A DNA stretch of 33,420 nt, from contig WAOR01000086.1 of assembly GCA_015521175.1 (NCBI GenBank), forward strand, positions 1-33,420, given 5' to 3'. Both the position numbers and the translations under genes were made by a program. The DNA is from Thermodiscus sp. Lineage in GTDB: Archaea; Thermoproteota; Thermoprotei_A; Sulfolobales; Acidilobaceae. Below are positions 5,089-31,301 of this stretch, piece after piece; the stretch's first letter is position 1; every line of letters starts with the position of its first letter. The notes beneath the pieces are model-generated. The model had not been told where the DNA came from and made no database searches. It saw nothing but the letters and a program-made list of their open reading frames with translations.

Positions 5089-6519
5089 TTGATAGCAGTG
5101 AATGGTAAATGTGACGTTGAGTATTACCTTAATAGTCTGAATGATGTTGGAATTGAGTATCGTATTGTAGAACCAAAATTGCCGGGTAGTTGGGATAAGT
5201 GGTGGCCTTACCCGCTAGATGCCTGGCCTCTATGCAATCTTACGTTTTACTCGGGCATTTATCAGCCGGGTAAGATTGTGGTCATACAGCCGAGAAACGT
5301 GAATGAGCTGAAAGAAGTAGTTTCGAGAGCCCGTAATCATACTGTTTGTCTCTTGCCTAGGGGTGGGGGTAGCGGGGTGCTCGGTGCCCTCGCCCCTCGC
5401 GACTGCTGTGTCTATGTTGACTTGTCTAGATTTGACTGGATCGAGCCCCATGTGGAGGAGGGTTATGTTTACGTGGGAGCCGGGGCTCTGCTCTCGCGTG
5501 TAGAGGAGGTACTCGGCGGGAAAGGTTACACGACTGGGCTGGAGCCGCAGAGTATAAGGGTTGCAAGCGTTGGGGGCTTAGTCAATACTCTCGGTGCTGG
5601 AGCTCTCCAGCCTGGGATCGGGAATATAGAGGACATCCTCATTTACGTGGACATGGTTGACGGCGGGAGTCGTAGGCTGAGGCTGGGGGACCCTCGCCGT
5701 CCTAGGGCCTATGGCCTTGCGGGGGGCCCATTCCTAATTGCAGGTAGCGAGGGTAGCCTGGGAATCGTGTATGGCGTCGGCCTGAGGATACGTAGGATCC
5801 CGCGGTATACTAGTAGTGGGACCTTTGAGTTCAATAGTATCGAGGACGCCCTACTTGTGGCTAGAAGGCTCCTGCAGTGGAACCAGCCAGCCCTACTCAG
5901 GGTGCTCGACGAGTATGAGGCCTCAACGCTCTATGGTGGGAGCGGGACCCTCCTATTGGTCGCCTACTATGACAATGAAGACCCGAGAGTTCCACAGGCC
6001 CTCCTCGGCAAGGCCTCCAAGATAGCGGGAGCCCAAGGCGGAAGGTCTACACAGGACATTTACGAGAAGTGGAGGGAAACAAGGTACGACTACCATAAGC
6101 TAGTGGAACAGGTGGCTGGCATCGGCCTATGGTTTGATACCATAGACGTTCAAGCTACGTGGCCAAGGCTACCAAGGATCCATAAGGCTGTAACCGAGAA
6201 GTTGCAAGCAACCAAGGGTGTCGTTGGGGTATTCAGCCATATATCACACTTCAACACTATGGGCGGATCCCTCTACACCACGATAATAGTTGAGAGGGAC
6301 CCCCAGGTACTCGCTAATGCTTGGCGTGTAATGCTTGACACGGTCCTAGAAATAGGGGGATCAGTGACGCACCATCACGGAGTCGGCCTTCAGAAACTAT
6401 ACTGGATACTCCGGGAGAGGCCCTGGGAGATAGAAGCCTACTGCAGGGTTAAGAGAGCCTTCGACCCAGAAGGAATACTGCAGGCTCACGGACTAGCCAG
6501 CGCCTGCAGGAGGAGCTAG
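5089..6519 (+). CDS. FAD-binding oxidase/dehydrogenase of the GlcD / alkyldihydroxyacetonephosphate synthase superfamily
   Basis: LLPRGGGSGVLGAL..., ASVGGLVNTLGAGALQPGIGNIEDI, LIAGSEGSLGIVYGVGLRIRRIP; C-terminal GGSVTHHHGVG as in AGPS-like proteins. TTG start preceded by GAGGGAGG. Confidence 0.85.
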   Translation: MIAVNGKCDVEYYLNSLNDVGIEYRIVEPKLPGSWDKWWPYPLDAWPLCNLTFYSGIYQPGKIVVIQPRNVNELKEVVSRARNHTVCLLPRGGGSGVLGALAPRDCCVYVDLSRFDWIEPHVEEGYVYVGAGALLSRVEEVLGGKGYTTGLEPQSIRVASVGGLVNTLGAGALQPGIGNIEDILIYVDMVDGGSRRLRLGDPRRPRAYGLAGGPFLIAGSEGSLGIVYGVGLRIRRIPRYTSSGTFEFNSIEDALLVARRLLQWNQPALLRVLDEYEASTLYGGSGTLLLVAYYDNEDPRVPQALLGKASKIAGAQGGRSTQDIYEKWRETRYDYHKLVEQVAGIGLWFDTIDVQATWPRLPRIHKAVTEKLQATKGVVGVFSHISHFNTMGGSLYTTIIVERDPQVLANAWRVMLDTVLEIGGSVTHHHGVGLQKLYWILRERPWEIEAYCRVKRAFDPEGILQAHGLASACRRS

Positions 6520-7574
6520 TGGGGAGCCCCTTGACAGACGCCGATATAATAATAGTGGGCGCCGGGGTCGTAGGCCTATTCACTGCTCTAGAAGCCGCCC
6601 ACAAAGGCCTAACGCCACTAGTACTAGAAGAGAGATCGCCAGGAGCAGGTGCATCGACGCGTAACGCGGGGGTACTCCACCTAATCCAGCCGCCCCCAGG
6701 CAAGCTGAGGCGCAGGCTAGCCCTCGAGGGGGCAAGACTCTACCGGGTACTAGCCGGTGGGATAGGCTACCAGGTCTACGAGACAAGACTGCTAATACTT
6801 GCTACCACGAGGCTTGAATCGCTACTCCTCCGTCCAGCCCTCATAGCGATCAGGAGGCTAGCACCGGGTGTGAAAGCGAGGATAGCCGGGAGAAGAGAGA
6901 TACTTAGACTGGAACCCGAGGCTAATCCAAAGGTGCGATCGGGGATCATAGTGGAAGGCTATGGAGTCGTCGAGCCACGACACCTAATAAGCAGGCTAGC
7001 TAGAGAAGCTGAAGCGCGTGGAGGCATAGAAACGGGGAAGAAAGTAACCGGGATCAAGTGCAGGGGCGATAAGGTAATCGTGGAGGCAAGCGATGGAAGC
7101 GAATACACGGCTCGTTACGCTATAAACGCTGCTGGTGCGGGGGCGGAAGTCCTAGCACGCCAACACGGGATAAGGGTAAGGGTCGAGTTAAAGCCGGGAA
7201 CAATGGAGATTTACCAAGACCCCAAGCCCAGAAACATTCTAGCGAGGATACCGACCACGTCGAAAACCAAGGGAGGAGCAGTCATACCCTGGCCGCAGGG
7301 GACCCTCTACGGCCCCGACCTAAGGGAGAGCCCGGGGGACCCCCAGCCATCGCCTGGAGCGGTAGCCGCAAAGTATCGCAGGCTAATTCGCAGGGACCCC
7401 AGAGGCCTACTCGAGAGGATCGAGGGCCTCCGGACGGTCGCCAAGCCTAGAGACTTCCATTTAATCGTACCGGAGCGTTGCCCGCGAGTGGTCCATTTGC
7501 TAGGCATCGAGAGCCCTGGACTGACAGCTGCGCCAGCCCTAGCCCGGCTAGCCCTCTCAAAGCTCTTCGGATAG
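6519..7574 (+). CDS. FAD-dependent oxidoreductase, DAO family (GlpA/LhgO-like)
   Basis: N-terminal ADIIIVGAGVVGLFTALEAAHKGLTPLVLEE Rossmann motif and GAGASTRNAGVLH. GTG start overlaps the upstream TAG. Confidence 0.85.
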   Translation: MGSPLTDADIIIVGAGVVGLFTALEAAHKGLTPLVLEERSPGAGASTRNAGVLHLIQPPPGKLRRRLALEGARLYRVLAGGIGYQVYETRLLILATTRLESLLLRPALIAIRRLAPGVKARIAGRREILRLEPEANPKVRSGIIVEGYGVVEPRHLISRLAREAEARGGIETGKKVTGIKCRGDKVIVEASDGSEYTARYAINAAGAGAEVLARQHGIRVRVELKPGTMEIYQDPKPRNILARIPTTSKTKGGAVIPWPQGTLYGPDLRESPGDPQPSPGAVAAKYRRLIRRDPRGLLERIEGLRTVAKPRDFHLIVPERCPRVVHLLGIESPGLTAAPALARLALSKLFG

Positions 7575-7579
7575 CGGGC

Positions 7580-8002
7580 CTACTCGATGGGGACCCTCTG
7601 AGCGGCCTTAACCATCTCTAAAGCCGCTATGGGATACCTCATAATTATACTATAGCTGCCCTTCGCTAGCACAAGCTTCCTCCTCATAATTGCTGAGAGG
7701 GGGTTAACCTTTCCCTGGATAATATCGAGCCAGTCCTGGAGTGTCGCCTCGAGCACGTAGGGAGCATCGGCCTTTGAGGCATCGTCATACCACTCCACAC
7801 CCTCACACTTGCCATTGTTCAGCTTTAGGACGAAGCCCTTCTTCCTACCGTTCTTCACGACGAATAGGATGGGCCAAACCCAGCCCCGGGCGCTCCTAGC
7901 ATAGGACTCGCTACGGTTGAGCTCTTTGCAATAAGCCTCCGCCCACTCCTTACTTGGAAACTTGGGCACTTCAGGCTCCCCCATAATTTTTAGAGAGCGC
8001 AT
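7580..8002 (-). CDS. SCP2 sterol-binding-domain-like protein
   Basis: Pattern ...LEATLQDWLDIIQGKVNPLSAIMRRKLVLAKGSYSIIMRYPIAALEMVKAA matches the SCP2-family C-terminal pattern. Confidence 0.7.
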   Translation of the reverse strand: MRSLKIMGEPEVPKFPSKEWAEAYCKELNRSESYARSARGWVWPILFVVKNGRKKGFVLKLNNGKCEGVEWYDDASKADAPYVLEATLQDWLDIIQGKVNPLSAIMRRKLVLAKGSYSIIMRYPIAALEMVKAAQRVPIE

Positions 8003-8045
8003 TGCCTATAACGTTTAACTACTCATTAAACTAGTTATTTAAGCT

Positions 8046-8442
8046 GTTACTGAGATCGGGGGGAACTCGTACCTTTCAATGCACTCATTTGTATCCTTTG
8101 GAACTCATCATATAGAACCTCTGCAAAGAAGTACCTCAACTGGCTCCTCGCCTTCTCCTATTATTGCACCACTGAACGGGTCAGATACTAGAAGAGTATA
8201 TTCTGTTAGCGAGAGTTTTGCTCTCTATCAGCGTAGATATATGTGACCTTCACCCAGATTAAGGCTGCTTAACACTTACATTTTCCTTAGATTCGAGGGC
8301 TAGGAGCTCCTCCAAGACAATAGGAAACCTGTCTGCAATGGATCCTAATAGGCGTCTCGCTACCCCCTAAGATGCCGTCGGGAAAAGGACTATCCTGTAG
8401 AAGGTGTTTCAGGAATACTGAGATGATTCTTGCAATATATCA
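8046..8442 (-). pseudogene. Frameshifted remnant of a protein-coding gene
   Basis: Minus-strand frames read in order YIARIISVFLKHLLQDSPFPDGILGG / VARRLLGSIADRFPIVLEELLALESKENVSVKQP* / AKLSLTEYTLLVSDPFSGAIIGEGEEPVE / RSQLRYFFAEVLYDEFQRIQMSALKGTSSPRSQ*. Continuity needs several frame changes. Confidence 0.55.
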
Positions 8443-8497
8443 CTAGAACTTGTTAGAACATAAACTATAAAATATCGTAACTATATGAAATAAATAA

Positions 8498-9901
8498 TTA
8501 GTCTCCGATTAGGTTGGCCAATAATTCTCCGATCTCTCCAGCCGAGTCCTCATCTTCAAACCCTGTAAGGAGCCTGTCGAAAGCCTTTCCAATTTCATAG
8601 TATAATTCCCCTCCTACTCCAACATTGCTACACTCTGTTAGCGGATGCCTATCGCTGAGTGCCCTCGACGCGAGAATCGCCGCTCCCAGAGATGTTGGAT
8701 CTTGGCGGCAATAGAATACCTCGCCAGGCAATACACGTTGAAGTATTTCCCTAATTAGAGGTATGCTAGCAATACTGCCCGTCAGGTAAACCTTCTTAGG
8801 CTTGCTTCGCTGAGAATGGAGCCATAGTAAATGGCTAGCAATGCCTACAACACCGGTCACAATGGCGCATGTGAGCTCTTCATTTCCTATTATAGAAGGA
8901 CTGCCTAGTATGATGACCCTTGAAGCTCCAACTCCTGCTCCTGGTCCTGCTGGGTATGGTAGTAGTATTGAGCCTTGCCATTGTTTGCAGTGTTTGGGTT
9001 TGAGTTGGTGTAGTGTTTGGAATCCTCCTATTGCCTCTGCTAAGCCCTGTACTGCTAGTCCTGCTCCCGGTGCTAGTGTTTCGATGCCCCATTCTACTTT
9101 TTTACCGTGCTTGTAGACTACTATTGGTAATTGTCCTCGTGGCAGTGTTAGTGGCGGTGGGCCCTGGATTCTCCTGTCGGCGAAGAAGCCTGTTCCTAGG
9201 CTTAGCTTCACGCAGATGGTGTCGCATGGTAGTGCTAGTAGTGCTGCTTGTTGGTCTGAGATTATCGCCCGGATGTTCATTGGCTCGTCGTCTAGTATGT
9301 TGTCTCCTAGTAGTGGTAGTTGTAGGTCTCTTAGCGCTGCTAGTTCCCGTATTAGTGGTATTGGCTTGAGGGTTCGGGGGTTGATTATTCCTGTTAATGC
9401 GGCCGCCGTGGGCTCGGTTCGGTAGCCTGCTCCTATCCACTCGCTTACTAGTGCGTCTAGCGTCCATACCCTGGCATTCGGATGCCTGGTGTGGAGGTGG
9501 TGGATTACTGGTAGGGGTGTGTGCTCGTTTATCACTTTGTTGTAGGGTGGTATCTTGGAGGCTACTCGTGCCCGGAGGGGTAGCTGGCGGTATGCTTCCT
9601 CGTGTATCTTGCGGTCTAGCCATAGGATTACGGGTTCCAGTGTTTCACCGCCGGGTTTCCATGCGGTGACGCTTGCCCTGTAGAGGGCTATCCCTATCGT
9701 CTTGGCTCCTTTTTCGATTGCTTTCTTCCTCATTTCTAGGAGTGCTTGGCGTAGTGCTTGGGGGTCGTGCCATGCCCTGCCCCGGTGCCAGTGGAGGGGT
9801 GAGGGCCTCGACTCTGAGTAGACTAGCCGGTCTTCCTCGTCGTAGACGTGTAGCTTTATCCTCGAGGTTCCAATGTCTATTCCCGCGGCTAAGTGCTCCA
9901 T
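8498..9901 (-). CDS. FGGY-family carbohydrate kinase (glycerol kinase-like; substrate unassigned)
   Basis: N-terminal AAGIDIGTSRIKLHVYDEEDRLVYS phosphate-binding motif; VILWLDRK; C-terminal KKVYLTGSIASIPLIREILQRVLPGEV...LGAAILASRA. Confidence 0.85.
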   Translation of the reverse strand: MEHLAAGIDIGTSRIKLHVYDEEDRLVYSESRPSPLHWHRGRAWHDPQALRQALLEMRKKAIEKGAKTIGIALYRASVTAWKPGGETLEPVILWLDRKIHEEAYRQLPLRARVASKIPPYNKVINEHTPLPVIHHLHTRHPNARVWTLDALVSEWIGAGYRTEPTAAALTGIINPRTLKPIPLIRELAALRDLQLPLLGDNILDDEPMNIRAIISDQQAALLALPCDTICVKLSLGTGFFADRRIQGPPPLTLPRGQLPIVVYKHGKKVEWGIETLAPGAGLAVQGLAEAIGGFQTLHQLKPKHCKQWQGSILLPYPAGPGAGVGASRVIILGSPSIIGNEELTCAIVTGVVGIASHLLWLHSQRSKPKKVYLTGSIASIPLIREILQRVLPGEVFYCRQDPTSLGAAILASRALSDRHPLTECSNVGVGGELYYEIGKAFDRLLTGFEDEDSAGEIGELLANLIGD

Positions 9902-9917
9902 TTCGTGGGACCCTCTC

Positions 9918-11075
9918 CTAGGGGTTTACCTGGTGGGGGTTGGTGATTAGTGATGTGCATGGTCCTGGCCCCCTCCTGGCTAGTTTTATGTGGAGGGCTG
10001 GGTGTATCTCGGCCCACTGGCCGTGGTCTGTGTCTACGACGTGGACCCCGGTCACTATTAGCTCGTCTCCCTTGCAAACCATTCCTCCTAGCTGGTGTAG
10101 GAGGCTCCTGTCCCTTGGTATGATTTCTACGTGGAGGTTGCCGTGGCGTAGCACTATGTTGCCTATGCTGAGTACGGGGGTTGCATTAGCGTCCTCTACT
10201 CGGAGGTCGAAGCAGTAGTCTCCGTCGTCGGCTGTGAACGGTATACTAGCTACTACACCCCTCACCGTTACGCACTCGTGTACGATGCGTAGCCTCGCCG
10301 GGTCGTGTACACCCGTGAAGGCGTTGGTTCTCCCTTGGCAGGCCTGGTGGAGGCTCCACCTCCCCGTGGTGTAGCTCGAGGGCTTGAAGGGGTAGCTCAA
10401 TATGGAGGCGTTAGCCCACAGGCCGGGTCCCCCAAGGGCCACTCCTACTAGTAGGAGTAATAGTAGGCCTCCAATTGAGGCTCTCTTGGCCTGTGTCTTG
10501 GAGGCGAGCGGTGGGGCTAGTACTGCGGCTAGGCCTCCTGCGAGGGCGGTGGGGCTTGGAAAGAAGATTGTCCCGGCTATGTAGAGGGCTGTGCCTAGCC
10601 ATGAGAGGAGGCCTAGTGCTTTGTCCCTTCTCCAAGCTATTAGCCCCGTGTAGGCGAGTAGTACTACTATGGTGTTGAACACGCTTAGGCCGACATGGAT
10701 TCCATCGTCTCCATAGTAGAGTATGCCGGCGAGCGTCGCGACTAGAGGTGTTAAGGCTGAAAGGGCTAGGACTCCTGCCAGTGGACCCTTCCTAGCGGTT
10801 ACAAGGCTGGCCGCGTAGGCGACTAGCGGTCTTAGGACTAGGCCTAGCACTGCCACGGGGAGGAGCATGCTCTTACTCAGGGCTATGATCGGGAGGCCAG
10901 CGAGTTCTCCCAAGAATACTGTGGCTAGCGCCCACCGTGGGTCTAGTAGGAGGGCGGCGAGGGCCGTGGCGAGTGTTATGAAGCCGTAACCTGAAGCTAT
11001 GCTGGGAGCGTTCACTGATAGGGGAAAGGAGGCGAGGACCACTAACGTGACAAGTACGATTCTAATCCTTTTCAA
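9918..11075 (-). CDS. Multi-pass membrane protein with a C-terminal extracytoplasmic OB-fold-like domain
   Basis: Multiple hydrophobic segments, then CVTVRGVVASIPFTADDGDYCFDLRVED...LHVEIIPRDR...GDELIVTGVHVVDTDHGQWAEIHPALHI. Confidence 0.75.
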   Translation of the reverse strand: MKRIRIVLVTLVVLASFPLSVNAPSIASGYGFITLATALAALLLDPRWALATVFLGELAGLPIIALSKSMLLPVAVLGLVLRPLVAYAASLVTARKGPLAGVLALSALTPLVATLAGILYYGDDGIHVGLSVFNTIVVLLAYTGLIAWRRDKALGLLSWLGTALYIAGTIFFPSPTALAGGLAAVLAPPLASKTQAKRASIGGLLLLLLVGVALGGPGLWANASILSYPFKPSSYTTGRWSLHQACQGRTNAFTGVHDPARLRIVHECVTVRGVVASIPFTADDGDYCFDLRVEDANATPVLSIGNIVLRHGNLHVEIIPRDRSLLHQLGGMVCKGDELIVTGVHVVDTDHGQWAEIHPALHIKLARRGPGPCTSLITNPHQVNP

Positions 11076-11184
11076 CCCTCGTTACACCTAGTGATTGGCC
11101 CCACTAGTATCCTACCCTGATCGTAATACTAGGGCTTATCCCCTTGGATAGTATTGAGGGGTTAACCACCCGTGTGGGGAGGCA

Positions 11185-11511: not shown

Positions 11512-12104
11512 CATTCTGCGTGGGCTTCGAATTCCACGGCCTCGTAGCCGTCAAGGCGCATTCCTTTGCTTATAGATATCTCGACTATCCTACCTCTCGC
11601 TAGCCTGTCCACGTACCCGGGGGTTTCCACGCCCCTTATCTTACCGCAGGGCTGTGCTATCCAGTAGACGGTGTAGGGGTACTCTGCGGTCTCGGGCTCG
11701 TAATAGTCCTCGTAGACGTTCAAGCCGTCGATGGGCTCGTAGGGGATCCTGGCGTGGAATACTAGGCTGTGCCTCCTCCTGCTCCCCCTGAAGACTATGC
11801 GGGCGCTGTCAACTATAGTACGTGTTCTCATCCCGTTGACTATTACTTTCTCCTCGTCCATGAACTCTTGCATGCGTCTGCGAGCCTCTTCCGCCTCCTT
11901 ATCCTCTAGTTCATGGCTCGTAACATAGTCGTAATAGTCGCCTTCAAGGTCGACGTAGTCGAATACAATGGTGTAGTAGATAGTCCCCCATGTAATATGA
12001 AAGAAGCCCTCCCCGAAAACAGGGACAAGCCTAGCCACCCTTGAGGGACCCCCAGCCAAGGAGAGAGTATAATGAGCTATTACAGCTTTGAGGGACCCCC
12101 GCAA
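11508..12104 (-). CDS. Hypothetical protein (about 198 aa; start uncertain)
   Basis: Long protein-like ORF; the annotated start overlaps the divergent PHP ORF. Confidence 0.65.
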   Translation of the reverse strand: MRGSLKAVIAHYTLSLAGGPSRVARLVPVFGEGFFHITWGTIYYTIVFDYVDLEGDYYDYVTSHELEDKEAEEARRRMQEFMDEEKVIVNGMRTRTIVDSARIVFRGSRRRHSLVFHARIPYEPIDGLNVYEDYYEPETAEYPYTVYWIAQPCGKIRGVETPGYVDRLARGRIVEISISKGMRLDGYEAVEFEAHAEC

Positions 12105-12797
12105 CTAGTACGTGGCGGGGGCTGGCAAGGATTGCCGAGGGCCGAGCTACACCTCCACACCACCGCGAGCGACGGCTCCCAGACCCCGGAGAGGGCAGTA
12201 AGGGAAGCCGTGAGGCGGGGCCTCACTGCACTGGCCGTGACGGACCACAACACGTTCCGGGGGTCCAGCCTGGCGATGCGGGTCTCCAAGCTACTCGAGG
12301 GACCCTTGATAATACCTGGGAACGAGGTTAGAACAGACTACGGAGACGTCCTAGTATACTGCCCCGAGCCCCACGAGGAAACCCCCAAGCCACTAGCCGA
12401 GCTGAGGGAATGGGCCGAGGAGAATAACTGCGTACTAGTCGTCGCACACCCGCTACAGCCTGGGAAGCACAGTGTCGGTCTAGCGACTAGAAGGCTAATC
12501 CCGTACTTCGACGCCATTGAGGTATGGAACTCCCGGGGGCTACCATGCCTCAACGCCCTGGCAATACTCCTTGCCAGGAAGCACGGGAAACCAATGACCA
12601 GCGGGTCAGACGCCCACACACCCCAGGAGGTCGCCACAGCCCCTGTAGAGCTACCCGGTGAGCCAGAGACGGTGGAAGACGTGCTGGAGTGGATAAGGAA
12701 GGGGAGGGTCAAGCCTCTCTATAGGCCCGTTAGGCCCTGGGCCATACCCTACATGCTAGCCTGGAGCGTGAAGAGGCGCCTTGGGAAGGGAGAGTAG
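12072..12797 (+). CDS. PHP-domain metal-dependent phosphoesterase
   Basis: AELHLHTTASDGSQTPERAVREAVRRGLTALAVTDHNTFRG, LVVAHP, SGSDAHTPQEV. Confidence 0.9.
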   Translation: MSYYSFEGPPQLVRGGGWQGLPRAELHLHTTASDGSQTPERAVREAVRRGLTALAVTDHNTFRGSSLAMRVSKLLEGPLIIPGNEVRTDYGDVLVYCPEPHEETPKPLAELREWAEENNCVLVVAHPLQPGKHSVGLATRRLIPYFDAIEVWNSRGLPCLNALAILLARKHGKPMTSGSDAHTPQEVATAPVELPGEPETVEDVLEWIRKGRVKPLYRPVRPWAIPYMLAWSVKRRLGKGE

Positions 12798-12869
12798 CCT
12801 AGACTCCCAGGCTACGGTATCCTCTTATTCCCCGGGAGGGTCCCTCAATGGAGCACGGCGTGGATTACA

Positions 12870-13703
12870 TTGCTCACCCCCAAAACCCTAGCACTACCAG
12901 CATATCCTCCCAGCAAGCCGGAGGAGGCGCAGGCCCAGGTCGAGGAGCTAGTAGCCCTACACCTTGAGGGGAAGATCCAGGCAGGCCTCGTAGCCTCCTC
13001 ATGGAGTGGAGAAGGCCTAGTCCTCGGGTTCTACGAGGCATACCGTGAGGGTGCCAGGTGGAGGAGGATAACCGGGGGACCCTCATACAAGGCCACAGGA
13101 GCGACTGGGTACGCGGGCCTAGTCTTCGCTAGCGAGGACCTAGGAGAGGTCGCCGAGATAGCAAGTAGGCTAGCCGAGTGCATCGGCGGTGAGGCGTGGG
13201 GTGTGACGAGGATAGGCCCCCCACAGCTAGCCGCTGGAGTCGTCGAGGTGCTCGGAGGGTTCACTCCGGACACCGCGGTTGCATGTGTCCAAGAGGAGCT
13301 ATTCGGTGTGAGACTCGAGGCGAAAAGTGTAGGGTTGAAGTCTACTGAGAGGATTTCGAAGGCATACGCTGCAAAGGGCTGGGTGCACTATACTGGAGCA
13401 GTCGAGATGCCATTCGTCGGGAGGGTTGAGCGTGGGGACTACTGGGTTAGAATGGGTATCGCTGTGACGGGTGACGGCTTCATATCCAACGCTAGGATTG
13501 ACGGAGTGTTCCACGCTGCTCCGCCTAACGAGCCCTATAACCTGGTGAACGCAGTCCTTGGAATGCCTGCGGGAGAGCAAGCATTGGACTTATTCGAGGC
13601 CAGGAGCAACCTCGTAGAAGTGTGGGGCTTGGAGAGGAGCGACCTTGTCGAAGCCCTAGCCAGGGCGATAGATGCTTCTAGTAAAGGTCTAGACGACGAA
13701 TAG
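12870..13703 (+). CDS. Lipoate-protein ligase-like protein (LplA/LplB-like fold), divergent
   Basis: WRRITGGPSYKATGATGYAGLVF resembles the RRxxGGG motif of LplA; C-terminal GDGFISNARIDGVFHAAPPNEPYNLVNAVLGMP resembles the lipoate accessory domain. TTG start likely. Confidence 0.5.
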   Translation: MLTPKTLALPAYPPSKPEEAQAQVEELVALHLEGKIQAGLVASSWSGEGLVLGFYEAYREGARWRRITGGPSYKATGATGYAGLVFASEDLGEVAEIASRLAECIGGEAWGVTRIGPPQLAAGVVEVLGGFTPDTAVACVQEELFGVRLEAKSVGLKSTERISKAYAAKGWVHYTGAVEMPFVGRVERGDYWVRMGIAVTGDGFISNARIDGVFHAAPPNEPYNLVNAVLGMPAGEQALDLFEARSNLVEVWGLERSDLVEALARAIDASSKGLDDE

Positions 13704-13964: not shown

Positions 13965-14032
13965 CTCGGATCGTACCGTGTATGAAGGAGTGGCTCCCGG
14001 TCTATTAAAAAGGAGGAGTATGCGGGGGTTGA

Positions 14033-14050
14033 GGGACCCTCAGGGGTCCC
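14033..14050. repeat. Perfect hairpin GGGACCC-TCAG-GGGTCCC in the AOR/MoaD spacer
   Basis: Exact 7-bp arms and 4-nt loop, built from two copies of the recurring GGGWCCC core. Confidence 0.85.
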
Positions 14051-14057
14051 CCAGCTG

Positions 14058-18225: not shown

Positions 18226-19791
18226 GTGACGACGGGGATACCTGGCCTCAGGCCTGGAAGGTTAGAGGAGGCTATTAGTGTAGAGGATATGAGGGCATAC
18301 GAGCTTAACGGCGTATACCTGGGGGTCCCCCTACTCCTCATGATGGAGAACGCTGGCAGAAGCGTTGCCGACTATGTAGAGTACAGGCTAGGCGGAGTTA
18401 AGGGCAAGAAGATCGTAGTCTTCGCCGGCAAGGGCGGGAATGGTGGAGACGGCTTCGTAGCGGCACGCCACCTAGCCGCTAGGGGTGCGATCGTCGAGGT
18501 ACACCTAGCATACCCGCCCAGCGAGGTCGAACACCCAGACGCCAGGCTCAACCTAGAGGCGCTACAACGCCTGGATAGCGTCAGGCTGGTGAAGCCCTTC
18601 GCCAAGGGATGGCTCGAGACAAAGTCGGCCGACGCAGTCATCGACGCCCTACTAGGCACTGGCGTGAAGGGTGCTCTTAGGGGCAGCATAAGGGAGGCGG
18701 CGAGGGCCTACAATGAGGCGGGAGGCCTAAGGGTCTCCGTAGACGTGCCTACAGGCGTAGACCCCGACACTGGCAACGCCGTGGAGGGAGCTGTGAGGTC
18801 TGATGCAACAGTTACAATGCACAAGCCCAAGAAGGGCCTCTTTCAAGCCAGACACTATACGGGAGAGATCATTGTAGCAGAGATAGGTCTACCAAGAGAC
18901 GCCGAGGTAATAACTGGGCCTGGAGATGTAGCCGCGAGGATCCCGGGTAGGCCTAGAGACGCCCATAAGGGGTCGGCTGGAAGACTCCTCGTAGTCGCTG
19001 GTAGCAGGTACTATGTCGGAGCCCCACTCCTGGCGAGTATGGCGGCGGCCAGGGTTGGCGTGGACCTCGTATTCCTCGCCTCCACGCGCGAGATAGCGTT
19101 CGAGGCCGCTAGCCAGTGTTCAACAATAGTCCCAAGACCCTTCCACAGCGAAACGCTCACGAGCAGGGATCTACAAGAACTATCAAAGCTACTCGACAAG
19201 GCCCACGGACTACTCGTAGGCCCCGGGCTGGGCGACGAGCAGGAGACACTAGAAGCAGTAGTGAGCCTCGTCCATGAAGCCGTCGAGAAGAAGATCCCCG
19301 TTGTAGTGGATGCGGATGGCCTCAAGGCGATAGCAAAAACTAGCGGTAGACTAAGTGGATCAGTGGTGCTTACACCTCACAGAGGAGAGGCAAAGAGGCT
19401 GGCGGGAGTGAGTGATAGTGACGATCATTCTGACTGGAGGAGGCTCGCAAGGATGATAGCTGAGAAGTACGATGCGGTAGTGCTTCTCAAAGGCCCTACT
19501 GACTATATCTGCGATGCCAAGGGGAGATGCCGTGAGAACAGGTCCGGCGTGCCAGCCATGAGCGTGGGCGGGACCGGGGACGTGTTATCAGGGCTAGTAG
19601 CCGGGATATTGGCTAAGAGGAAGGCTCTAGGCAAGGATCCAGACCCCCTCAACTCGGCGGCGACAGGAGCGTTCCTAAATGGGAGGGCCGGAGAGCTCGC
19701 TTATAACGATCTCGGGGAGTCCTTGACGGCCAGAGACCTTCTCACATATATACCCGTATTGTTGAGGGACCCCCTCTTAGGGGTCAAGTAA
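18226..19791 (+). CDS. nnr: Bifunctional NAD(P)H-hydrate epimerase / ADP-dependent NAD(P)H-hydrate dehydratase
   Basis: MMENAGRSVADYVEYRL, VFAGKGGNGGDGFVAARHLAARG; C-terminal DAHKGSAGRLLVVAGS, GLLVGPGLG, VVDADGLKA, LTPHRGEAKRLAG, SVGGTGDVLSGLVAGILA. Confidence 0.93.
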   Translation: MTTGIPGLRPGRLEEAISVEDMRAYELNGVYLGVPLLLMMENAGRSVADYVEYRLGGVKGKKIVVFAGKGGNGGDGFVAARHLAARGAIVEVHLAYPPSEVEHPDARLNLEALQRLDSVRLVKPFAKGWLETKSADAVIDALLGTGVKGALRGSIREAARAYNEAGGLRVSVDVPTGVDPDTGNAVEGAVRSDATVTMHKPKKGLFQARHYTGEIIVAEIGLPRDAEVITGPGDVAARIPGRPRDAHKGSAGRLLVVAGSRYYVGAPLLASMAAARVGVDLVFLASTREIAFEAASQCSTIVPRPFHSETLTSRDLQELSKLLDKAHGLLVGPGLGDEQETLEAVVSLVHEAVEKKIPVVVDADGLKAIAKTSGRLSGSVVLTPHRGEAKRLAGVSDSDDHSDWRRLARMIAEKYDAVVLLKGPTDYICDAKGRCRENRSGVPAMSVGGTGDVLSGLVAGILAKRKALGKDPDPLNSAATGAFLNGRAGELAYNDLGESLTARDLLTYIPVLLRDPLLGVK

Positions 19792-19839: not shown

Positions 19840-20718
19840 TTGGATATAACAGTAGGCTTCAGCATCGACAGGCTATTCGACCTTATCCAGTGGGGAGCAC
19901 TAGAGAACCCCGGGGAGGCCAGGGCACGGGAGAGATTCTCCAAGCTACGAGACTATTTTCAGAAACTCCTTGGAAGGAAGCTTTTCGAGAAAATCGCTGG
20001 CTCCGAACAAGTACTGGTTGTAGACGTCATGGGCGGTACAGGGATAGCCGGAGCAGCTTTTCTAGCGGCCCACCAGGCCCTAAGGGGGGAGAAGGGAGAA
20101 TACAAGCTAACCGTGGTCGACGCGAGGAGGAAGGCCCTGGACTATGCCTCGAGGTGGCTTAGCCATGCGGGTCTCCAGGGAGTGGAGCTCTCAGCTATTA
20201 CTGGCGATGCTAGGAGGCTCCCAGAGGTACTCGGCGGTGAGAAGTATGATGTAGCCCTCGTGTGGGGTAGCAGTCTACCTCACGTAGACGTGCCGGGGAT
20301 GATACTGCTATTAGCAGGCCTGCGAGAGTCCATCGCCGAGGAGGGAGTAGCCCTGATAGAACAGCACGACCTTCTGCCCCGCCTTCTATTCGCCAACAAC
20401 TATAAGGACGTCTTGCTCGAGGGCGAGGCCATAACTATGCACCGCGGCTACGACCCCCGTACTGGTAGCGTGGAGCGGGTCGTGTATGATGCAAGGACAA
20501 TGCTATACCAGGGCGTCATGAAGACGAGGATATGGGAGATGAGCACGATAGCCGGGTACGCCTGGCTCTTCTTCCAGGAAGTATATCGCGACCACTACCT
20601 CGAGCAGGCTGGAGGGGGCCGCGCAGCCACGGTTTTGATAGCCTCTAAGCCCCGGGGCAACGCTCCGGGCTGGGAGGAACTGTGGGGGTCCCTCGACGAA
20701 TACTACAAGCCATTATAG
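19840..20718 (+). CDS. Class I SAM-dependent methyltransferase
   Basis: VLVVDVMGGTGIAGAAFLAAHQAL...LTVVDARRKALDYA...ALVWGSSLPHVD; TTG start. Confidence 0.75.
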   Translation: MDITVGFSIDRLFDLIQWGALENPGEARARERFSKLRDYFQKLLGRKLFEKIAGSEQVLVVDVMGGTGIAGAAFLAAHQALRGEKGEYKLTVVDARRKALDYASRWLSHAGLQGVELSAITGDARRLPEVLGGEKYDVALVWGSSLPHVDVPGMILLLAGLRESIAEEGVALIEQHDLLPRLLFANNYKDVLLEGEAITMHRGYDPRTGSVERVVYDARTMLYQGVMKTRIWEMSTIAGYAWLFFQEVYRDHYLEQAGGGRAATVLIASKPRGNAPGWEELWGSLDEYYKPL

Positions 20719-20760
20719 CAGTCCCCCAGGGAGACCACCACCCCGGAGGGCTACCGGGTA

Positions 20761-21288
20761 ATGGGTAAGGGCCACAGGATAAGGGAGAGGTACGAGGCCA
20801 CAGCCGCCGGGTACGATGAACTCTACAGGGCCGAGCAATACGAGAAGTATAGCGTAGCGTTGAAGAGGGTCCCTCCAAAGGGCCGAGTCCTAGACGCTGG
20901 CTGTGGTACAGGGCTCCTAGCCGAGTACATGCGCACCGCCGGCTACCTCGACAATGTCAGCGAGTACTACTGCCTCGATTACAGCTGGGAGATGCTACGA
21001 ATAGCCCGTTGGAGGCTGAGCCATATCTGCCCTGGCAAGTGCCACGTTTTGGAGGGCAACGCGATGGCCCTCCCCTTCCATGATAACGTCTTCGACGTTG
21101 TATACAGCTTCACAGTACTAGACCTTGTAGACAATCTAGACATCGCAGTAAGGGAACTAGTAAGGGTCTCCCAAGGCCCCGTAGTGGCGAGCCTCCTAAA
21201 GAAGCTACCCTACAAGGACAAGCTCCTCTCACAGCTTAAGCCGATCGTAGCGGTCACGAGCAAAGACGTAGTCCTAAGGCTCGACTAG
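20761..21288 (+). CDS. SAM-dependent methyltransferase (UbiE/Methyltransf_11-like)
   Basis: GRVLDAGCGTGLLAEYM, YYCLDYSWEMLRIARWRL, GNAMALPFHDNVFDVVYSFTVLDLVDN. Confidence 0.88.
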   Translation: MGKGHRIRERYEATAAGYDELYRAEQYEKYSVALKRVPPKGRVLDAGCGTGLLAEYMRTAGYLDNVSEYYCLDYSWEMLRIARWRLSHICPGKCHVLEGNAMALPFHDNVFDVVYSFTVLDLVDNLDIAVRELVRVSQGPVVASLLKKLPYKDKLLSQLKPIVAVTSKDVVLRLD

Positions 21289-21989
21289 AGGGACCCCCAA
21301 GTCATCCTCCTAAAGAAGGGGTTCTCCCTGCGAAGCCTCTCAACAGTCTCCTCAACGCTAACCCCTGGCGGGACCTCGACCTTTAGGAATACTCCCGTCC
21401 TCCCATGCTCCTTCCTTCTAGTCAACACCCTGACCCTCTCAAGCACCGTCTCAATTGACACGCCTACTATTCTCGCGACGAGGTGCTCGTTCCCCTCAAC
21501 CTCGACCTCCACGTGCCCCCCTGGAGTGGGTATTATGAGGCGTAGCTCCTTTGACACTCCAGGGACCCTCACGCTCCCTATTAGGCCCTTGTAGTCTAGC
21601 TCGCCTCCCCACTTGTAGAACTCCCTCTCCCTAGGCCTGAGCCTCGCTAAAGGGTGGCTCACAACCTTCTCCTCCCTCTCGTCAAGGTAGTAGTAGACCT
21701 TGGGCACGTAGCCAGGAGTGGCCTGGACTATCTCCCGGTAGTATACCATGTACCCAGCCCTTTCGAGCAGTAGCTCGACCATGCTGGGGGGCACGGGCTC
21801 CAGTATGACTACGTCTATATCACTATCCTCACGGACGTCTCCCCTCGCGATACTACCGTGTACCACTACTGGGGCTCGGAGGGGCTGGAGAGCCTCTACT
21901 AGGCGTTTAGCCCTACGCCTCTTCTCCGCCAGGACCTCCCAGTGCCTTGGGGTATACTCCCTCTCCTCCCCCAGCCCCTCCCAGGTCAT
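21285..21989 (-). CDS. MNT/Pol-beta-like nucleotidyltransferase-domain protein
   Basis: VVVHGSIARGDVREDSDIDVVILEP (GSxxRG...SDxD motif). Confidence 0.85.
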   Translation of the reverse strand: MTWEGLGEEREYTPRHWEVLAEKRRRAKRLVEALQPLRAPVVVHGSIARGDVREDSDIDVVILEPVPPSMVELLLERAGYMVYYREIVQATPGYVPKVYYYLDEREEKVVSHPLARLRPREREFYKWGGELDYKGLIGSVRVPGVSKELRLIIPTPGGHVEVEVEGNEHLVARIVGVSIETVLERVRVLTRRKEHGRTGVFLKVEVPPGVSVEETVERLRRENPFFRRMTWGSL

Positions 21990-22357
21990 CCCTCAACCAC
22001 GTACCTCTCGTTCAGGGCCTCCCCAATTATCTCCCCCTGGGGGTCCCTCGCTGTTATTATGAAGAGGGCCCTCCTACCGTCGAAGGAGGCGAGCCTAGCC
22101 TCAACGATAACCCTCTCTCCGACGCCCACGCTACGCCTATGCTTCACGTCAACCCTATACCCCACACTAGTCCTCCTATCGCCTAGCAGCTCGTCGAGGC
22201 ACATCCTAGCGGTAGCCTCCATGAATAGGGCGAGACAGGGCGTTGACAGGACGAGCTTACCCCTACCCGCTAAGTGCTGGGCCACATGCTCCTCGCCTAC
22301 AGTCCACTCGGCCTTACAGACGACCTGCTCCTCCCGCTCTATGCTAAGGCTGGGCAT
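21986..22357 (-). CDS. Hotdog-fold thioesterase-like protein (FlK-like)
   Basis: LVLSTPCLALFMEATARMCLDELLGDRRTSVGYRVDVKHRRSVGVGERVIVEARL; T/E/H positions resemble the FlK-type triad. Confidence 0.75.
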   Translation of the reverse strand: MPSLSIEREEQVVCKAEWTVGEEHVAQHLAGRGKLVLSTPCLALFMEATARMCLDELLGDRRTSVGYRVDVKHRRSVGVGERVIVEARLASFDGRRALFIITARDPQGEIIGEALNERYVVEG

Positions 22358-23168
22358 ACTCCTCAGCCCTCCTCACGAAGCCCTCGGCTGCGGCAAAAAT
22401 GTCCTCTGGCTCCACCCCAGCGTATTCTAGGAGGCTTATGAAGCTGTTAGCGAGCGAGTATGCAAGCCCTGGGCTGGGCGGGGAGTAGACAGTCTCCTTT
22501 ACGAGGCTCCGGGCCAGGCCTGGAGGATAGACGTGTATGTTCGAGTCGGGCCATAGCCCCCGTATGAGGCCGTCGCTCACGTATCCCACTAGGCCGAACA
22601 CGCTGCCATTACGGGTAACCCTGTAGGAGACTAGGCTACCCTCACCCCTAACGGGGTCTATCCACTCTTCCCTGGAGAGCTTTGAGACAATTGGCTCCAA
22701 TAGCTCTCTAGGAACGGGTTCGTCATCCTCTACTATATCCCATTCCCGGAATGCCTCCTCGACAACGGCTTCAAGGCTGCTAGGCGAGTATAGTTCTATG
22801 AAGGGTTTAGAAGCGCTCTTACCGACACCATAGACGAGACCGCTATATCTCGAGAACTCATCGACCGCCACTTCATATGCCCACTTGAGGGTCCCCCCGT
22901 TAAACACTATGACCCCGAAGTAGTCGCCGCCACTAGCCCTATACTCGCCACCACCACTAGCCCTCCTAAAAACACCACCACTACTCCAAACAGCTGCAAG
23001 ACTTCCCACCGTGACACCGGAGCCGTCAATCCTGCCAGTAGCTACTAGGGCCTCATAGCCCTCTGGAAACCTAGGAGCGGCGAACAATGGTATAGCCGCG
23101 GCCTCGGCCAGGGATAGACTGCCAGCATCGACCAGTAAGACCCTCGGCATCCTAGAGGGACCCTCCAA
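22344..23168 (-). CDS. Lipoate-ligase-like protein, apparent divergent paralogue of 12870-13703
   Basis: FRRASGGGEYRASGGDYFGVIVF aligns with WRRITGGPSYKATGATGYAGLVF; VSDGLIRGLWPDSNIHVYPPG aligns with VTGDGFISNARIDGVFHAAPP. Confidence 0.5.
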   Translation of the reverse strand: MEGPSRMPRVLLVDAGSLSLAEAAAIPLFAAPRFPEGYEALVATGRIDGSGVTVGSLAAVWSSGGVFRRASGGGEYRASGGDYFGVIVFNGGTLKWAYEVAVDEFSRYSGLVYGVGKSASKPFIELYSPSSLEAVVEEAFREWDIVEDDEPVPRELLEPIVSKLSREEWIDPVRGEGSLVSYRVTRNGSVFGLVGYVSDGLIRGLWPDSNIHVYPPGLARSLVKETVYSPPSPGLAYSLANSFISLLEYAGVEPEDIFAAAEGFVRRAEEYAQP

Positions 23169-23183
23169 TCCACCGGGGAAGGC

Positions 23184-24306: not shown

Positions 24307-24349
24307 CCCGCCACGATAATAGCGTACTGACAACATAATAAGGTGATGT

Positions 24350-24796: not shown

Positions 24797-24871
24797 CATC
24801 CTTAATTTTTTGTTTAAAGTGTAAATTATTTAGTAATATAGTTTTAAGTTCTATAGAGATAGTATAATTTA

Positions 24872-24893
24872 ATACCTGGTATTTTCCAGGTAA
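24872..24893. repeat. Short inverted repeat ACCTGG-TATTTT-CCAGGT between the pilin-like genes
   Basis: Exact 6-bp arms read directly, just upstream of the second pilin-like ORF. Confidence 0.6.
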
Positions 24894-24911
24894 CAAAACA
24901 CGGGGCGTGCA

Positions 24912-25349: not shown

Positions 25350-25358
25350 CAACTTCCT

Positions 25359-26003: not shown

Positions 26004-26206
26004 TGTAGGTCTTTCCTCCCTGGGGGTCCCCTGGCTGGTGGCCCTTGTTTCATCTGGGGTTCTTGTTGTTTTGTATTACGTTTTGTTAGTGGATTCTATT
26101 AGGCTTCGCATGGGTTTACATGTGGAAGCTATTTATTTCTGCGCCTATACTGAGTAGTTTACCCAGGAATCGAGTAAGGTCTTTACTTAGGGGAGGGTGA
26201 CGGGGA

Positions 26207-27901
26207 GTGAACCTGCTGGGACAGTGGGCTAGCTACCCAGCGTTTCACGATAGAGTATTGTCGATGATTGGCATCGAGGTACACTGGGCCATACTACAAT
26301 ACGTGCTGGGGCTTAGCGCTATCTCATTCATACTCTACCTCATCTACCTCAAGACAGGAGACAAGAAGTGGGAGAAGCTGGCCTACACCACCTTTAAGGG
26401 CTTCGTCATAGTATTCGCCGTAGGAGCGGCTACCGGTACTGCAAGCGAGTTCGGCCTCGTACTGCTATGGCCTAACCTTACAGAGGCGGCTGGCAGGTAC
26501 GTTTACTTCCCCCTCTACGCCGAGGTATTCGCCTTCCTACTGGAGGTAATCTTCGTCTACCTCACCTTCTACGGCTGGAGGAAGTTCGGCAAGGCCGCAA
26601 TGGTAGTATTACTATTCCTATCAGTGCTGGGCCCATGGTATAGCGCCGCTATGATTGTCAGCGTGAACAGCTACATGGTCGCCCCAACCGGGATAGAGCC
26701 CGCCTACAACCTTGCAACAGGCCATTGGATGTACGATCAGGGATACCCCAAGGTAACCCTAGTAGTGCCCAAGGACCTCGTCAAAGATCTAAACGTTACC
26801 CTACTCGAGAAGCTCGGAATGGACGTCAAGGGTACCACCAATGATGCCGTGATAGTTGCGATGCCTTCGAGGATAGTGCAACGCCTCGCCTATGAGTCAT
26901 GGGCCGGGTACAAGGTGAAGGACAGCATCCTAAAGGTAGTCGTCAATAAGACCACGATCGCGCACATGTCGAAGGACCAGTTGAACAAGCTATTGAACAC
27001 CCCCGTTAAGGCTATCGTTGACAAGATACTCGTGAAGACTGTCGAGACCGTTGGAGTAACATGGGTGACCTTCAAGAGCCCAGTATACGCCGCGTCAATA
27101 ATGCACGTGATAGGCGCAGCACTAACAGTCTCATCCTTCACGATGCTTGGAGCCTACGCTATGAGGATTCGGAAGTATAAGAATGCTAGCAAGGAGTACA
27201 AGGAGTATATTAACGCCGCCTTCAAGTTCGCAGTCGTGTTCGCCCTTATAGTAATAGCGGTACAAGGCCTCGTCTTCGGCCACGAGATGGGCAGGGCCAT
27301 TGCACACTACAACCCGGAGAAGTTCGCCGCCATGGAAGCCACCACCGTACAAATCACCCCGGTAACCAAGTACCTGCCCGGCGGCGAGAAGCTCGTAGCA
27401 CTACTAGCCTACGGTAACCCCAACGCTCCACTACCAAGCTATGACAAGATACCCAACGACTACTGCGTATGCCAGCTGACCAAGGCACAGGACCTGGCCA
27501 GAATAGGAGGAACCTGTAGGCCTCCACTACTCATACACTACCTATACTACACTAAGATAACCCTAGCCGTCCTCCTAGGATTCTACGCCCTCATACTAAC
27601 CGGGTACCTGTGGTGGAAGAAGGACCCGGAGAAGACGCCAGGATGGCTACTAAGCCTGGGAATAGTAGCGATAATAGTAGTACACCTAGTAAGCTACCTA
27701 GGCTGGGCTGTCAGGGAGATAGGCAGAAAGCCGTGGACAATCTACGGCATAATGACCACCGATGTCGCCCACACAATCAACCCGGCAAGCACCACTGCAG
27801 TAGCACTAGTGGCGCTATTCTTCATACTGATACTGATAGCGCTCGGCTACAGCGTGTGGAAGTTCCTCTGGGTCCCCGGTAGGCCCGAGGAGGAGGTCTA
27901 A
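26207..27901 (+). CDS. cydA: Cytochrome bd-type oxidase subunit I (CydA)
   Basis: FAVGAATGTASEFGLVLLWPNL, GHEMGRAIAHYNPEKFAAMEA, LGWAVREIGRKPWTIYGIMTT. GTG start. Confidence 0.88.
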   Translation: MNLLGQWASYPAFHDRVLSMIGIEVHWAILQYVLGLSAISFILYLIYLKTGDKKWEKLAYTTFKGFVIVFAVGAATGTASEFGLVLLWPNLTEAAGRYVYFPLYAEVFAFLLEVIFVYLTFYGWRKFGKAAMVVLLFLSVLGPWYSAAMIVSVNSYMVAPTGIEPAYNLATGHWMYDQGYPKVTLVVPKDLVKDLNVTLLEKLGMDVKGTTNDAVIVAMPSRIVQRLAYESWAGYKVKDSILKVVVNKTTIAHMSKDQLNKLLNTPVKAIVDKILVKTVETVGVTWVTFKSPVYAASIMHVIGAALTVSSFTMLGAYAMRIRKYKNASKEYKEYINAAFKFAVVFALIVIAVQGLVFGHEMGRAIAHYNPEKFAAMEATTVQITPVTKYLPGGEKLVALLAYGNPNAPLPSYDKIPNDYCVCQLTKAQDLARIGGTCRPPLLIHYLYYTKITLAVLLGFYALILTGYLWWKKDPEKTPGWLLSLGIVAIIVVHLVSYLGWAVREIGRKPWTIYGIMTTDVAHTINPASTTAVALVALFFILILIALGYSVWKFLWVPGRPEEEV

Positions 27902-27913
27902 GGGGGTGGTGGA

Positions 27914-29128: not shown

Positions 29129-29234
29129 CCCCAGGCCAGGAAACCTCATTCTTTTTCCTTCTAGACTATTATCATTTCTTATTTACTCCTAAAATCTGAG
29201 GGACCCGACAGTACAAGAATTAATCGAATAACCA

Positions 29235-29948
29235 GTGAGTGCAATCACACGGGCCGGGTGCGAGCAAATGGTGAGGCTCGTAGTCCTTAACGATAACGAG
29301 CCGAGCCCCGGACTACTCAACGAGTGGGGCTGGAGCCTCTACGTTGAGGGACCCTCACGCCTCTTATTCGACGCCGACACAGACTACCACGTCATAGAGC
29401 ACAATGCTAAGACACTAGGCGTAGACCTAGCAAGTCTAGACTACGCAATACTAAGCCACTGGCACAGGGACCACTATGGGGGCTTCCCAGCAGTAGCGAA
29501 GGCCAAGCCAGGGCTAACAGTATACTCTCCACCCGGGCCTACCTTCAGGCTCGAGAGACTCGGCCTAAGAGTAGTCACTGTGAGGGACCCCCTCAGGTTA
29601 GACGACGGAGTAATCATACTTCCACCCCTCTACGCTGAAAGCGTAGGCCTCTACGAGCTCGCCGCGAGCATACCCTCGGCTAAGGGCAGGATCCTAGTAG
29701 TAGGCTGCAGCCACCCGGGCGTGGACAGGCTGGCAATGCTACACTTGGAAGTGGTGGGGGAGAAGCCCTACATGGTGATAGGCGGCTTCCACGCCCCGCC
29801 CAGGAGTGTATTGGACAGGCTGGCAGGGATAGTCGAGGGACCTGTATGCGCCGCCCATTGTAGCGGGGACGAGGCGAAGGAATACATAGCCCGCGAGTAC
29901 ACGTGGAAGGCCTGCAGTGTTAGGACGGGCTCCATAGTGGAGGTCTAG
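29235..29948 (+). CDS. MBL-fold metallohydrolase (COG1237-like); true start probably ATG 29268
   Basis: YAILSHWHRDHYGGFPAVAK (HxHxDH), GCSHPGVDRL, VIGGFHAP. Confidence 0.85.
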   Translation: MSAITRAGCEQMVRLVVLNDNEPSPGLLNEWGWSLYVEGPSRLLFDADTDYHVIEHNAKTLGVDLASLDYAILSHWHRDHYGGFPAVAKAKPGLTVYSPPGPTFRLERLGLRVVTVRDPLRLDDGVIILPPLYAESVGLYELAASIPSAKGRILVVGCSHPGVDRLAMLHLEVVGEKPYMVIGGFHAPPRSVLDRLAGIVEGPVCAAHCSGDEAKEYIAREYTWKACSVRTGSIVEV

Positions 29949-31301
29949 GTGCCTAGTAGGTTGCCGGTTAAACTCTGGGTTATCGCTAGGCCAGTGTACG
30001 GTGGGAGGAACGCCTTCGCCCCACTACTGTCAGCGATCGAGGACAACCTAGGCGTCGAGTACAAGGTTACAATCATAGAGGGAGACCCCCTCCCATTTGC
30101 CAGGAGGGCGAGTGAAGCAGGGTATAAGCCCGTGGTCCTCTACGGCGTCTCCTCCCCAAGCTACCTCGACCTACGCGGGGAGATAGCAAGAGTCTCCAAG
30201 AGATACCACGTTATAGTAGGGGGGCCTCATGCTGAGGGAGCCTACTGGCACTTGTTGCGTGACGGCGCCTGGGCTGTAGTGGTTGGGGACGGAGAAGAGG
30301 CTATCACACCGCTACTAGAGGCAGCGGCCCTGGGGGACCCTCCAAGTAGTACTCCTAACACAGCGTATAGGGATGAGGACGGGTTCCACGTTACCAGGCA
30401 GGTCTATGCTAGACTAGACGACTACAAGCCCCACAACTCTACCCATGGCTTATACCCGCCGATCGAGATAATGCGTGGCTGCCTCTACAAGTGCAAGTAC
30501 TGCCAGGTACCATGGCTCTTCAAGGCCAAGGTGAGGTATAGGAGCATTGCTAAGGTGAGGGAGGCAGTTAGAGACTACGTGGCCGCTGGTAAGAGGAGGA
30601 TAAGGTTCATCGCTCCAATAGGTTTCGCCTACGGTAGCGCGATTCCTGGAAAACCAGATCCTATCATGGTGCGTGGCTTGCTTGAAGCGGTGAGGGAGGC
30701 GGGAGGGACCCCCTTCCTCGGTAGCTTTCCAAGCGAGACGAGGCCGGAATACGTTACACCCGAGGTTCTCGAGGCGGTGAGGGAGCTAGCTGGGAATAGG
30801 AAGATCTCCCTGGGCCTCCAGTCGGGTAGTAATAGGCTTCTGGAAAGGGTCGGAAGAGGGCATACTGTGGAGGAGGCCCTCGAAGCCGTGGACCTCATCC
30901 TCGAGTACGGGTTCACCCCTGTAGTGGACATATTGTTCAGCTTGCCCGGTGAGGAGGAAGAGGATGTTAAGGAAACAGTTAGAGTAATGGAGGAGCTAGC
31001 GGGTAAGGGGGCAAGACTACGCCTACACACCTTCATACCACTACCGGGAACCCCATTCGCGCGTAGCCGGCCCCATCCAGTACATAGGCTATACCGCAGG
31101 ACAGTCCTCCGGCTACTGGGGCGAGGCGTGCTCGAGGGCTACTGGGAGTGGCAGGAGGAGATAGCCCCAGCAGTCTACTGCCTAACAGCCCTAGACCCCG
31201 CTCCTACCCCTACACCCAGACCCCTGCCTGGTGCACGACAATACTGTCGTAGCTATTTAAAACAGAAGTATTACAGGACAGCCGCCCTACACCTCACCTG
31301 A
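29949..31301 (+). CDS. B12-binding-domain radical SAM protein
   Basis: IVGGPHAEGAYWHLLRDGAWAVVVGDGEEAI, then PPIEIMRGCLYKCKYCQVPWLF (CxxxCxxC) and SLGLQSGSNRLLERVGRGHTVEEALEAV. Confidence 0.92.
   Translation: MPSRLPVKLWVIARPVYGGRNAFAPLLSAIEDNLGVEYKVTIIEGDPLPFARRASEAGYKPVVLYGVSSPSYLDLRGEIARVSKRYHVIVGGPHAEGAYWHLLRDGAWAVVVGDGEEAITPLLEAAALGDPPSSTPNTAYRDEDGFHVTRQVYARLDDYKPHNSTHGLYPPIEIMRGCLYKCKYCQVPWLFKAKVRYRSIAKVREAVRDYVAAGKRRIRFIAPIGFAYGSAIPGKPDPIMVRGLLEAVREAGGTPFLGSFPSETRPEYVTPEVLEAVRELAGNRKISLGLQSGSNRLLERVGRGHTVEEALEAVDLILEYGFTPVVDILFSLPGEEEEDVKETVRVMEELAGKGARLRLHTFIPLPGTPFARSRPHPVHRLYRRTVLRLLGRGVLEGYWEWQEEIAPAVYCLTALDPAPTPTPRPLPGARQYCRSYLKQKYYRTAALHLT

Follow-up and report, generated by a model that had tools for sequence, protein, structure and literature searches.

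A highly over-represented 11-bp palindrome, GRGGGWCCCYC, specific to one archaeal genus within its family

The palindromic word GRGGGWCCCYC is hugely over-represented in a genus of archaea related to Thermodiscus; it is all-or-none in sequence, free in position, and independent of frame and strand. We analyzed it in a 33,420-nucleotide stretch of Thermodiscus sp. DNA (the window; contig WAOR01000086.1) and in genomes of the same genus, family and order (Sulfolobales). Contig 86, which makes up the window, belongs to a draft metagenome-assembled genome (MAG) of an archaeon related to Thermodiscus (1.27 Mb, 131 contigs, 83% complete). The window contains 33 copies of the core GGGWCCC, compared with 8.6 in dinucleotide shuffles, and 20 of them fit the 11-bp palindrome with sharp edges. 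The shorter form GAGGGWCCC, on which an earlier, sequence-only reading of the window had focused, occupies 25 distinct places (30 strand hits versus 1.42 expected from dinucleotide shuffles), and none of 100 shuffles reached 30 hits. The five GAGGGWCCCTC copies named in that reading are correct, but GRGGGWCCCYC, with its 20 copies, is the better consensus. The word behaves, in an archaeon, like the highly iterated palindromes (HIPs) of cyanobacteria.

Definition and distribution of the word

In the window's assembly as a whole, GAGGGWCCC gave 375 + 370 hits, versus 54 + 32 for the reversed control, and the 11-mer was present in 485 copies, versus 19 of its reversed control. The genus was represented by five genomes (G000 to G004). 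Since all of them are draft MAGs with a completeness of 65 to 95% (95% for G001), the absence of a gene from any one genome is weak evidence. G000, G002, G003, and G004 were read in part only, and the comparison with a Markov model covered 283 kb of G000, 1.34 Mb of G001, and 99 kb of G004. G004 is Thermodiscus sp. isolate S012_152 (WAKH01), with an identical contig 9, and G003 has sequence in common with Thermoproteota archaeon M_MaxBin.162 (JAADGB). Genes were called by a simple in-house scorer of open reading frames (ORFs), and gene ends are therefore approximate.

The over-representation first noticed in the window held against a low-order Markov model. With an order-2 model, strand counts of the 11-mer were 204 observed versus 3.2 expected in G000, 576 versus 16.5 in G001, and 28 versus 0.7 in G004, corresponding to 63-, 35-, and 42-fold enrichment, respectively; the GGGWCCC core was in 2.9- to 7.7-fold excess. 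Permuted palindromes were far rarer than the word: AGGGWCCCT was found 239 times in G001, versus a median of 11 for palindromes with permuted arms. When palindromes were ranked in three congeners, GGGWCCC had the top score among those of 6 to 7 bp and AGGGWCCCT among those of 8 to 9 bp. Per Mb, we counted 560 to 1010 cores and roughly 140 to 380 copies of the 11-mer.

A single mismatch anywhere in the inner seven bases reduced the counts to background (0 to 2 times expectation). GGGSCCC was under expectation in three genomes (0.72, 0.61, and 0.07), and GGGCCC was low as well (0.20 to 0.75). The core is flanked by G at position -2 and A or G at position -1, with nothing consistent farther out. 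In G000, enrichment was 63-fold with both flanks good, 4- to 5-fold with one good flank, and about 1-fold with none. Furthermore, opposite flanks at position 2 agreed more often than expected (0.67 versus 0.56 and 0.50 versus 0.41).

All five genomes of the genus were enriched, with 418 to 745 hits of GAGGGWCCC versus 20 to 106 of the reversed control. In the family's 13 remaining genera, the word did not exceed the control, apart from a few mild cases (69 versus 50 in G026). When 149 genomes of the order were compared, the two sampled members of the genus had 485 and 309 copies of the 11-mer, and none of the remaining 147 had more than 29. We conclude that the word is specific to one genus within its family. 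A small but clear excess of the 11-mer in G076 and G084, which belong to a distant genus in another family of the order (29 versus 1 and 20 versus 0), is possibly an independent or weaker case.

Placement and turnover of the copies

Genes harbored 82 of 102 11-mers in G000 and 214 of 288 in G001, and the coding copies fell in all three phases, with the phase yielding R-D-P preferred. Shuffling of synonymous codons within genes predicted 5.6 coding copies in G000, 22 in G001, and 0.9 in G004, where 82, 215, and 10, respectively, were seen. Because the shuffles yield only about a tenth of the copies, protein constraint is excluded, and codon usage fails as an explanation. The frame independence and the occurrence on both strands described for the window were confirmed. 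It is thus hardly conceivable that composition, codon usage, protein motifs, or an assembly artifact created the word. Its density does climb with the G+C content (r 0.53), in addition to the favored R-D-P phase, but the 11-mer was in excess in every G+C class (16-fold in the low-G+C class, up to 34-fold), and five separate assemblies agree.

In spacers, the density was 2 to 3 times greater than in genes. The intergenic density in G001 was maximal within 15 bp past stop codons (2.68 per kb, versus 0.52 beyond 120 bp), in line with the clustering at gene ends suspected from the window. This maximum would suit a transcription-related element, such as a terminator, a roadblock, or an RNA-processing site. 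We consider such a role very improbable, however, since about three quarters or more of the copies are intragenic and the word is also present in divergent spacers. Moreover, there is no pairing past 11 bp and the center is a single base, so that a proper hairpin is not supported. A hairpin or RNA stem was also rejected as the identity of the word, given the lack of complementarity beyond it.

Clusters of sites (at most eight in one gene) were located in ordinary genes, and over-dispersion was moderate, with no single hot locus. Two very dense clusters of the core were observed, one with 22 copies in 3.3 kb (L026, G004:C5, 25-3306) and the other with 9 copies in 1.1 kb (G001:C5:78750-79830); the genes in and around both look ordinary. 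A mobile miniature motif, another role considered for the window copies, was rejected: flanks are unrelated, nothing is shared past the 11 bp (2 bp outside the core), and 59 of 71 coding 11-mers of G000 align gap-free in G001. The region L010:5397-5507, which looked like interspersed repeats, was discarded as such, since it reads as tRNA genes, several of them interrupted as by introns (candidate tRNAs). A repeat resembling those of CRISPR arrays (GTTCAAAATAAGCAAGACTAA...) is present in 104 copies in G001 contigs.

The matched control words for the analysis of conservation were the full set of 19 other words in which three G and three C are placed around a central W. G003 and G004 (93.8% identity) shared 46 of 56 core sites, versus 55 of 127 sites of matched words (Fisher P = 9e-7), and G000 and G002 (87% identity) shared 27 of 38, versus 30 of 119 (Fisher P = 6e-7). 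In both congener pairs, substitution in the core was about half of that in flanks 3 to 30 bp off (P = 0.010 and 0.005); in G000/G002, the central base changed at about the rate of the flanks. In the comparison of G000 with G001 (median protein identity, 68%), 7 of the 59 coding 11-mers of G000 that could be aligned and 7 of the 31 of G001 were shared, and the G000 sites were located in stretches of below-average conservation (identity, 0.59 versus 0.65). Since sites are kept between close congeners and positions turn over at a distance, the word is maintained and its place is not. We conclude that the word outlasts its single copies, each of which is retained temporarily.

A candidate reader and competing explanations

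The sharp edges, the symmetric outer flanks, and the lack of further pairing argue for a protein acting on double-stranded DNA and not on RNA. We propose, with a probability of about 0.4, that a genus-specific, symmetric dimeric DNA-binding protein reads GRGGGWCCCYC as double-stranded DNA chromosome-wide. The dimer would contact 11 bp, the core GGGWCCC being essential and the GR/YC flanks contributing affinity, and it would work along the entire chromosome in compaction, in segregation, or in marking points for repair and recombination. Every copy would bring a small benefit, so that point substitutions could create copies where constraint is weak, namely in spacers, just past stop codons, and in loose protein segments; copies would be retained for a while and then replaced at other places. 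Somewhat more tentatively, the word may be regarded as a genome-wide double-stranded address word, by which a lineage-specific dimeric protein would organize or maintain the chromosome independently of methylation and MutS. Among the roles listed in the sequence-only reading, a chromosome-organizing site or another recognition word is a candidate; the mobile and restriction-linked ones are not supported.

Several points weigh against a dimeric reader. No protein binding the word was identified, and the two congener pairs provide 56 and 38 sites, not every one of which is independent of its local context. A search of about 1.34 Mb of G001 with a Walker-A pattern detected no segA-like gene, and therefore SegB, the one archaeal chromosome-organizing reader with dispersed sites that is known, is not an obvious candidate. 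Finally, biased repair or conversion could yield both over-representation and retention with no benefit per site.

Such a drive of the repair or conversion type is the main rival to the dimeric reader, although we regard it as unlikely. As in the type of model put forward for the cyanobacterial HIP1, a word-preferring repair, nicking, or recombination enzyme would convert near-miss heteroduplexes to GGGWCCC, which would thereby accumulate and be shielded from change. This would explain why the word is kept without its place, the genus-specific switching, and the accumulation at weak constraint, and the depleted GGGSCCC could be the converted donor. However, the low GGGCCC may account for the GGGSCCC deficit without conversion, and the other single-mismatch neighbors, which a drive should drain, are mostly at expectation in G001, the largest sample. 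Moreover, the model for the cyanobacterial word HIP1 requires methyl-directed MutS repair (PMC4390886), and MutS_V was detected in one of the five genus genomes. MutS was not found in G000 to G003; G004 has two adjacent MutS_V-like ORFs of 524 and 513 amino acids (G004:C63:3512-5478).

Alternatively, a solitary methyltransferase could modify GGGWCCC or the inner GGWCC/GGNCC, the mark serving replication, repair, or regulation. Palindromes of odd length centered on W are typical type II words, and the cyanobacterial HIPs contain methyltransferase words (PMC4390886). We nevertheless judge this explanation improbable. C5 methyltransferase genes (PF00145) are present across the whole order, also in genera that lack the word, and the three C5 enzymes read in the genus closely resemble those of other genera. 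Strong matches to N4/N6 methyltransferases (PF01555) were restricted within the genus to G000 and G002, and the 95% complete G001 has none. The sole N6 enzyme seen in G001 adjoins a probable restriction gene and suits another, erased word (see below). Accordingly, no genus-wide, genus-specific methyltransferase in PF00145 or PF01555 tracks the word; other families were not searched genome-wide. The methylation link suggested for the window copies is weakened by the order-wide C5 genes and by the strong N4/N6 matches being limited to two of five genus genomes. Since, in addition, MutS was found in one genus genome only, the HIP1 model of methylation plus MutS transfers poorly to the archaeal word. 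One N4/N6-type gene is common to G000:C38 (L114) and G002:C74 (L117), and none with a comparable score was seen in G001, G003, or G004.

The word GGGWCCC is the type II restriction word of SanDI, which matches the 7-bp core. A restricted word is expected to be avoided, as seen for CTCGAG in G001, whereas GGGWCCC accumulates, and a restriction-linked site was therefore not supported. CTCGAG is almost erased from G001 (14 in 1.34 Mb versus 794 expected; contigs L012-L021 and L032-L111), and its density in congeners is 0.83 and 0.5 copies per kb. At G001:C4:218267-220632 (L081/L082), an Eco57I-family N6 methyltransferase gene adjoins a gene for 299 amino acids without a Pfam match, which is a probable restriction gene. 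The two may form an XhoI-type restriction-modification pair acting on CTCGAG.

The uptake sequences of Neisseria and Haemophilus are short exact words that are present in hundreds of copies, restricted to a genus, favored at gene ends, and not palindromic. Since the archaeal word is also genus-restricted, frame-independent, enriched at gene ends, and present at many sites, it could be a signal for DNA uptake or exchange: conspecific DNA would be imported or recombined more readily when it bears the word, which would spread by transformation drive. This is quite improbable, since the known uptake words lack the palindromic structure and are tied to bacterial competence. To our knowledge, no sequence-specific DNA uptake is known in archaea.

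The HIPs are among the closest known words: HIP1 is GCGATCGC, others include GGGATCCC in hot-spring Synechococcus, and the published density is about 1000 to 2000 per Mb (PMC4390886). Like them, the archaeal word is a G+C-rich palindrome, the top over-represented one of its length, lineage-specific, and spread genome-wide (PMC4390886). Deviation from the word is likewise resisted, since both pairs of congeners shared its sites far more often than those of the control words. The archaeal word comes to roughly one per kilobase, the densities of the core and the 11-mer given above being slightly under the published HIP range. The archaeal word differs in its host, its odd length with a central W, its two-base flank requirement, the lack of a methyltransferase in step (PF00145 and PF01555 searched), and MutS not being found in four of five genomes.

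The SegB sites of Sulfolobales are TCTAGASTCTAGA-like motifs of 13 bp, with 46 sites in S. solfataricus clustered near segAB (PMC12284271). Their scattered layout is similar, but their sequence is another one, they number tens and not hundreds, and the segAB locus was not seen in G001. Identity with SegB sites is thus not supported, the word being different and the Walker-A search of G001 having given no segA candidate. In summary, the word fails defining features of both HIP words and SegB sites. Caldithrix abyssi has an 18-bp palindrome that is also over-represented and spread along a thermophile genome, but it is present in 38 exact copies, mostly intergenic and strand-specific (PMC5317091). 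In the open-access literature, we found nothing relevant on GGGWCCC methylation, on GGGACCC in archaea, or on over-represented palindromes in Pyrodictium; we do not claim that archaea were previously without an example of such a word.

What HIP1 does is still unexplained, the main model invoking methylation-directed mismatch repair. A comparable word in a hyperthermophilic archaeon, lacking a methyltransferase in step and mostly lacking MutS, would mean that this model does not hold in general or that such words are made by more than one kind of machine. If the address-word reading is true, HIP-like words would not be peculiar to cyanobacteria; they would have evolved repeatedly and would form a general layer of the chromosomes of prokaryotes. 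As the word has its origin within a single genus, a comparison with sister genera could lead directly to the reader protein and make an old question accessible to tests.

Copies in the window

All GGGWCCC cores listed in the sequence-only reading are present, and its five full GAGGGWCCCTC copies (12836, 14031, 20865, 23155, and 29346) are correct. It overlooked the copy at 5944, and its 12044 should be 12043. The sites are as follows (strand, "." throughout).

Copies of GRGGGWCCCYC:
5685..5695, exact match, within ORF 5452-6519(+)
6294..6304, within ORF 5452-6519(+)
7334..7344, within ORF 6519-7574(+)
12043..12053, intergenic, spacer 12038 to 12072
12090..12100, within ORF 12072-12797(+)
12836..12846, full GAGGGTCCCTC, intergenic
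13074..13084, within ORF 12870-13703(+)
14031..14041, full GAGGGACCCTC, intergenic
18321..18331, within ORF 18226-19791(+)
19764..19774, close to 3' end of ORF 18226-19791(+)
20684..20694, close to 3' end of ORF 19840-20718(+)
20865..20875, full GAGGGTCCCTC, within ORF 20761-21288(+)
21288..21298, convergent ends of ORFs 20761-21288(+) and 21285-21989(-)
22039..22049, within ORF 21986-22357(-)
22887..22897, within ORF 22344-23150(-)
23155..23165, full GAGGGACCCTC, intergenic, spacer 23150 to 23184
29346..29356, full GAGGGACCCTC, within ORF 29268-29948(+)
29582..29592, within ORF 29268-29948(+)
30332..30342, within ORF 29961-31301(+)
30703..30713, within ORF 29961-31301(+)

Further GGGWCCC cores:
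5944..5950, one good flank, the overlooked copy
7299..7305, one good flank
7393..7399, core match
7590..7596, one good flank
9907..9913, one good flank, intergenic
10425..10431, one good flank
12299..12305, one good flank
14044..14050, one good flank, intergenic, 11 bp from the copy at 14033
21562..21568, one good flank
26024..26030, one good flank, intergenic
27870..27876, core match
29200..29206, one good flank, intergenic
31558..31564, core match

Adjacent genes at 5452-9901 of the window weakly match the families of glycolate oxidase GlcD, FAD-dependent glycerol-3-phosphate oxidase, and sugar/glycerol kinase, which suggests a cluster for glycerol or polyol utilization.

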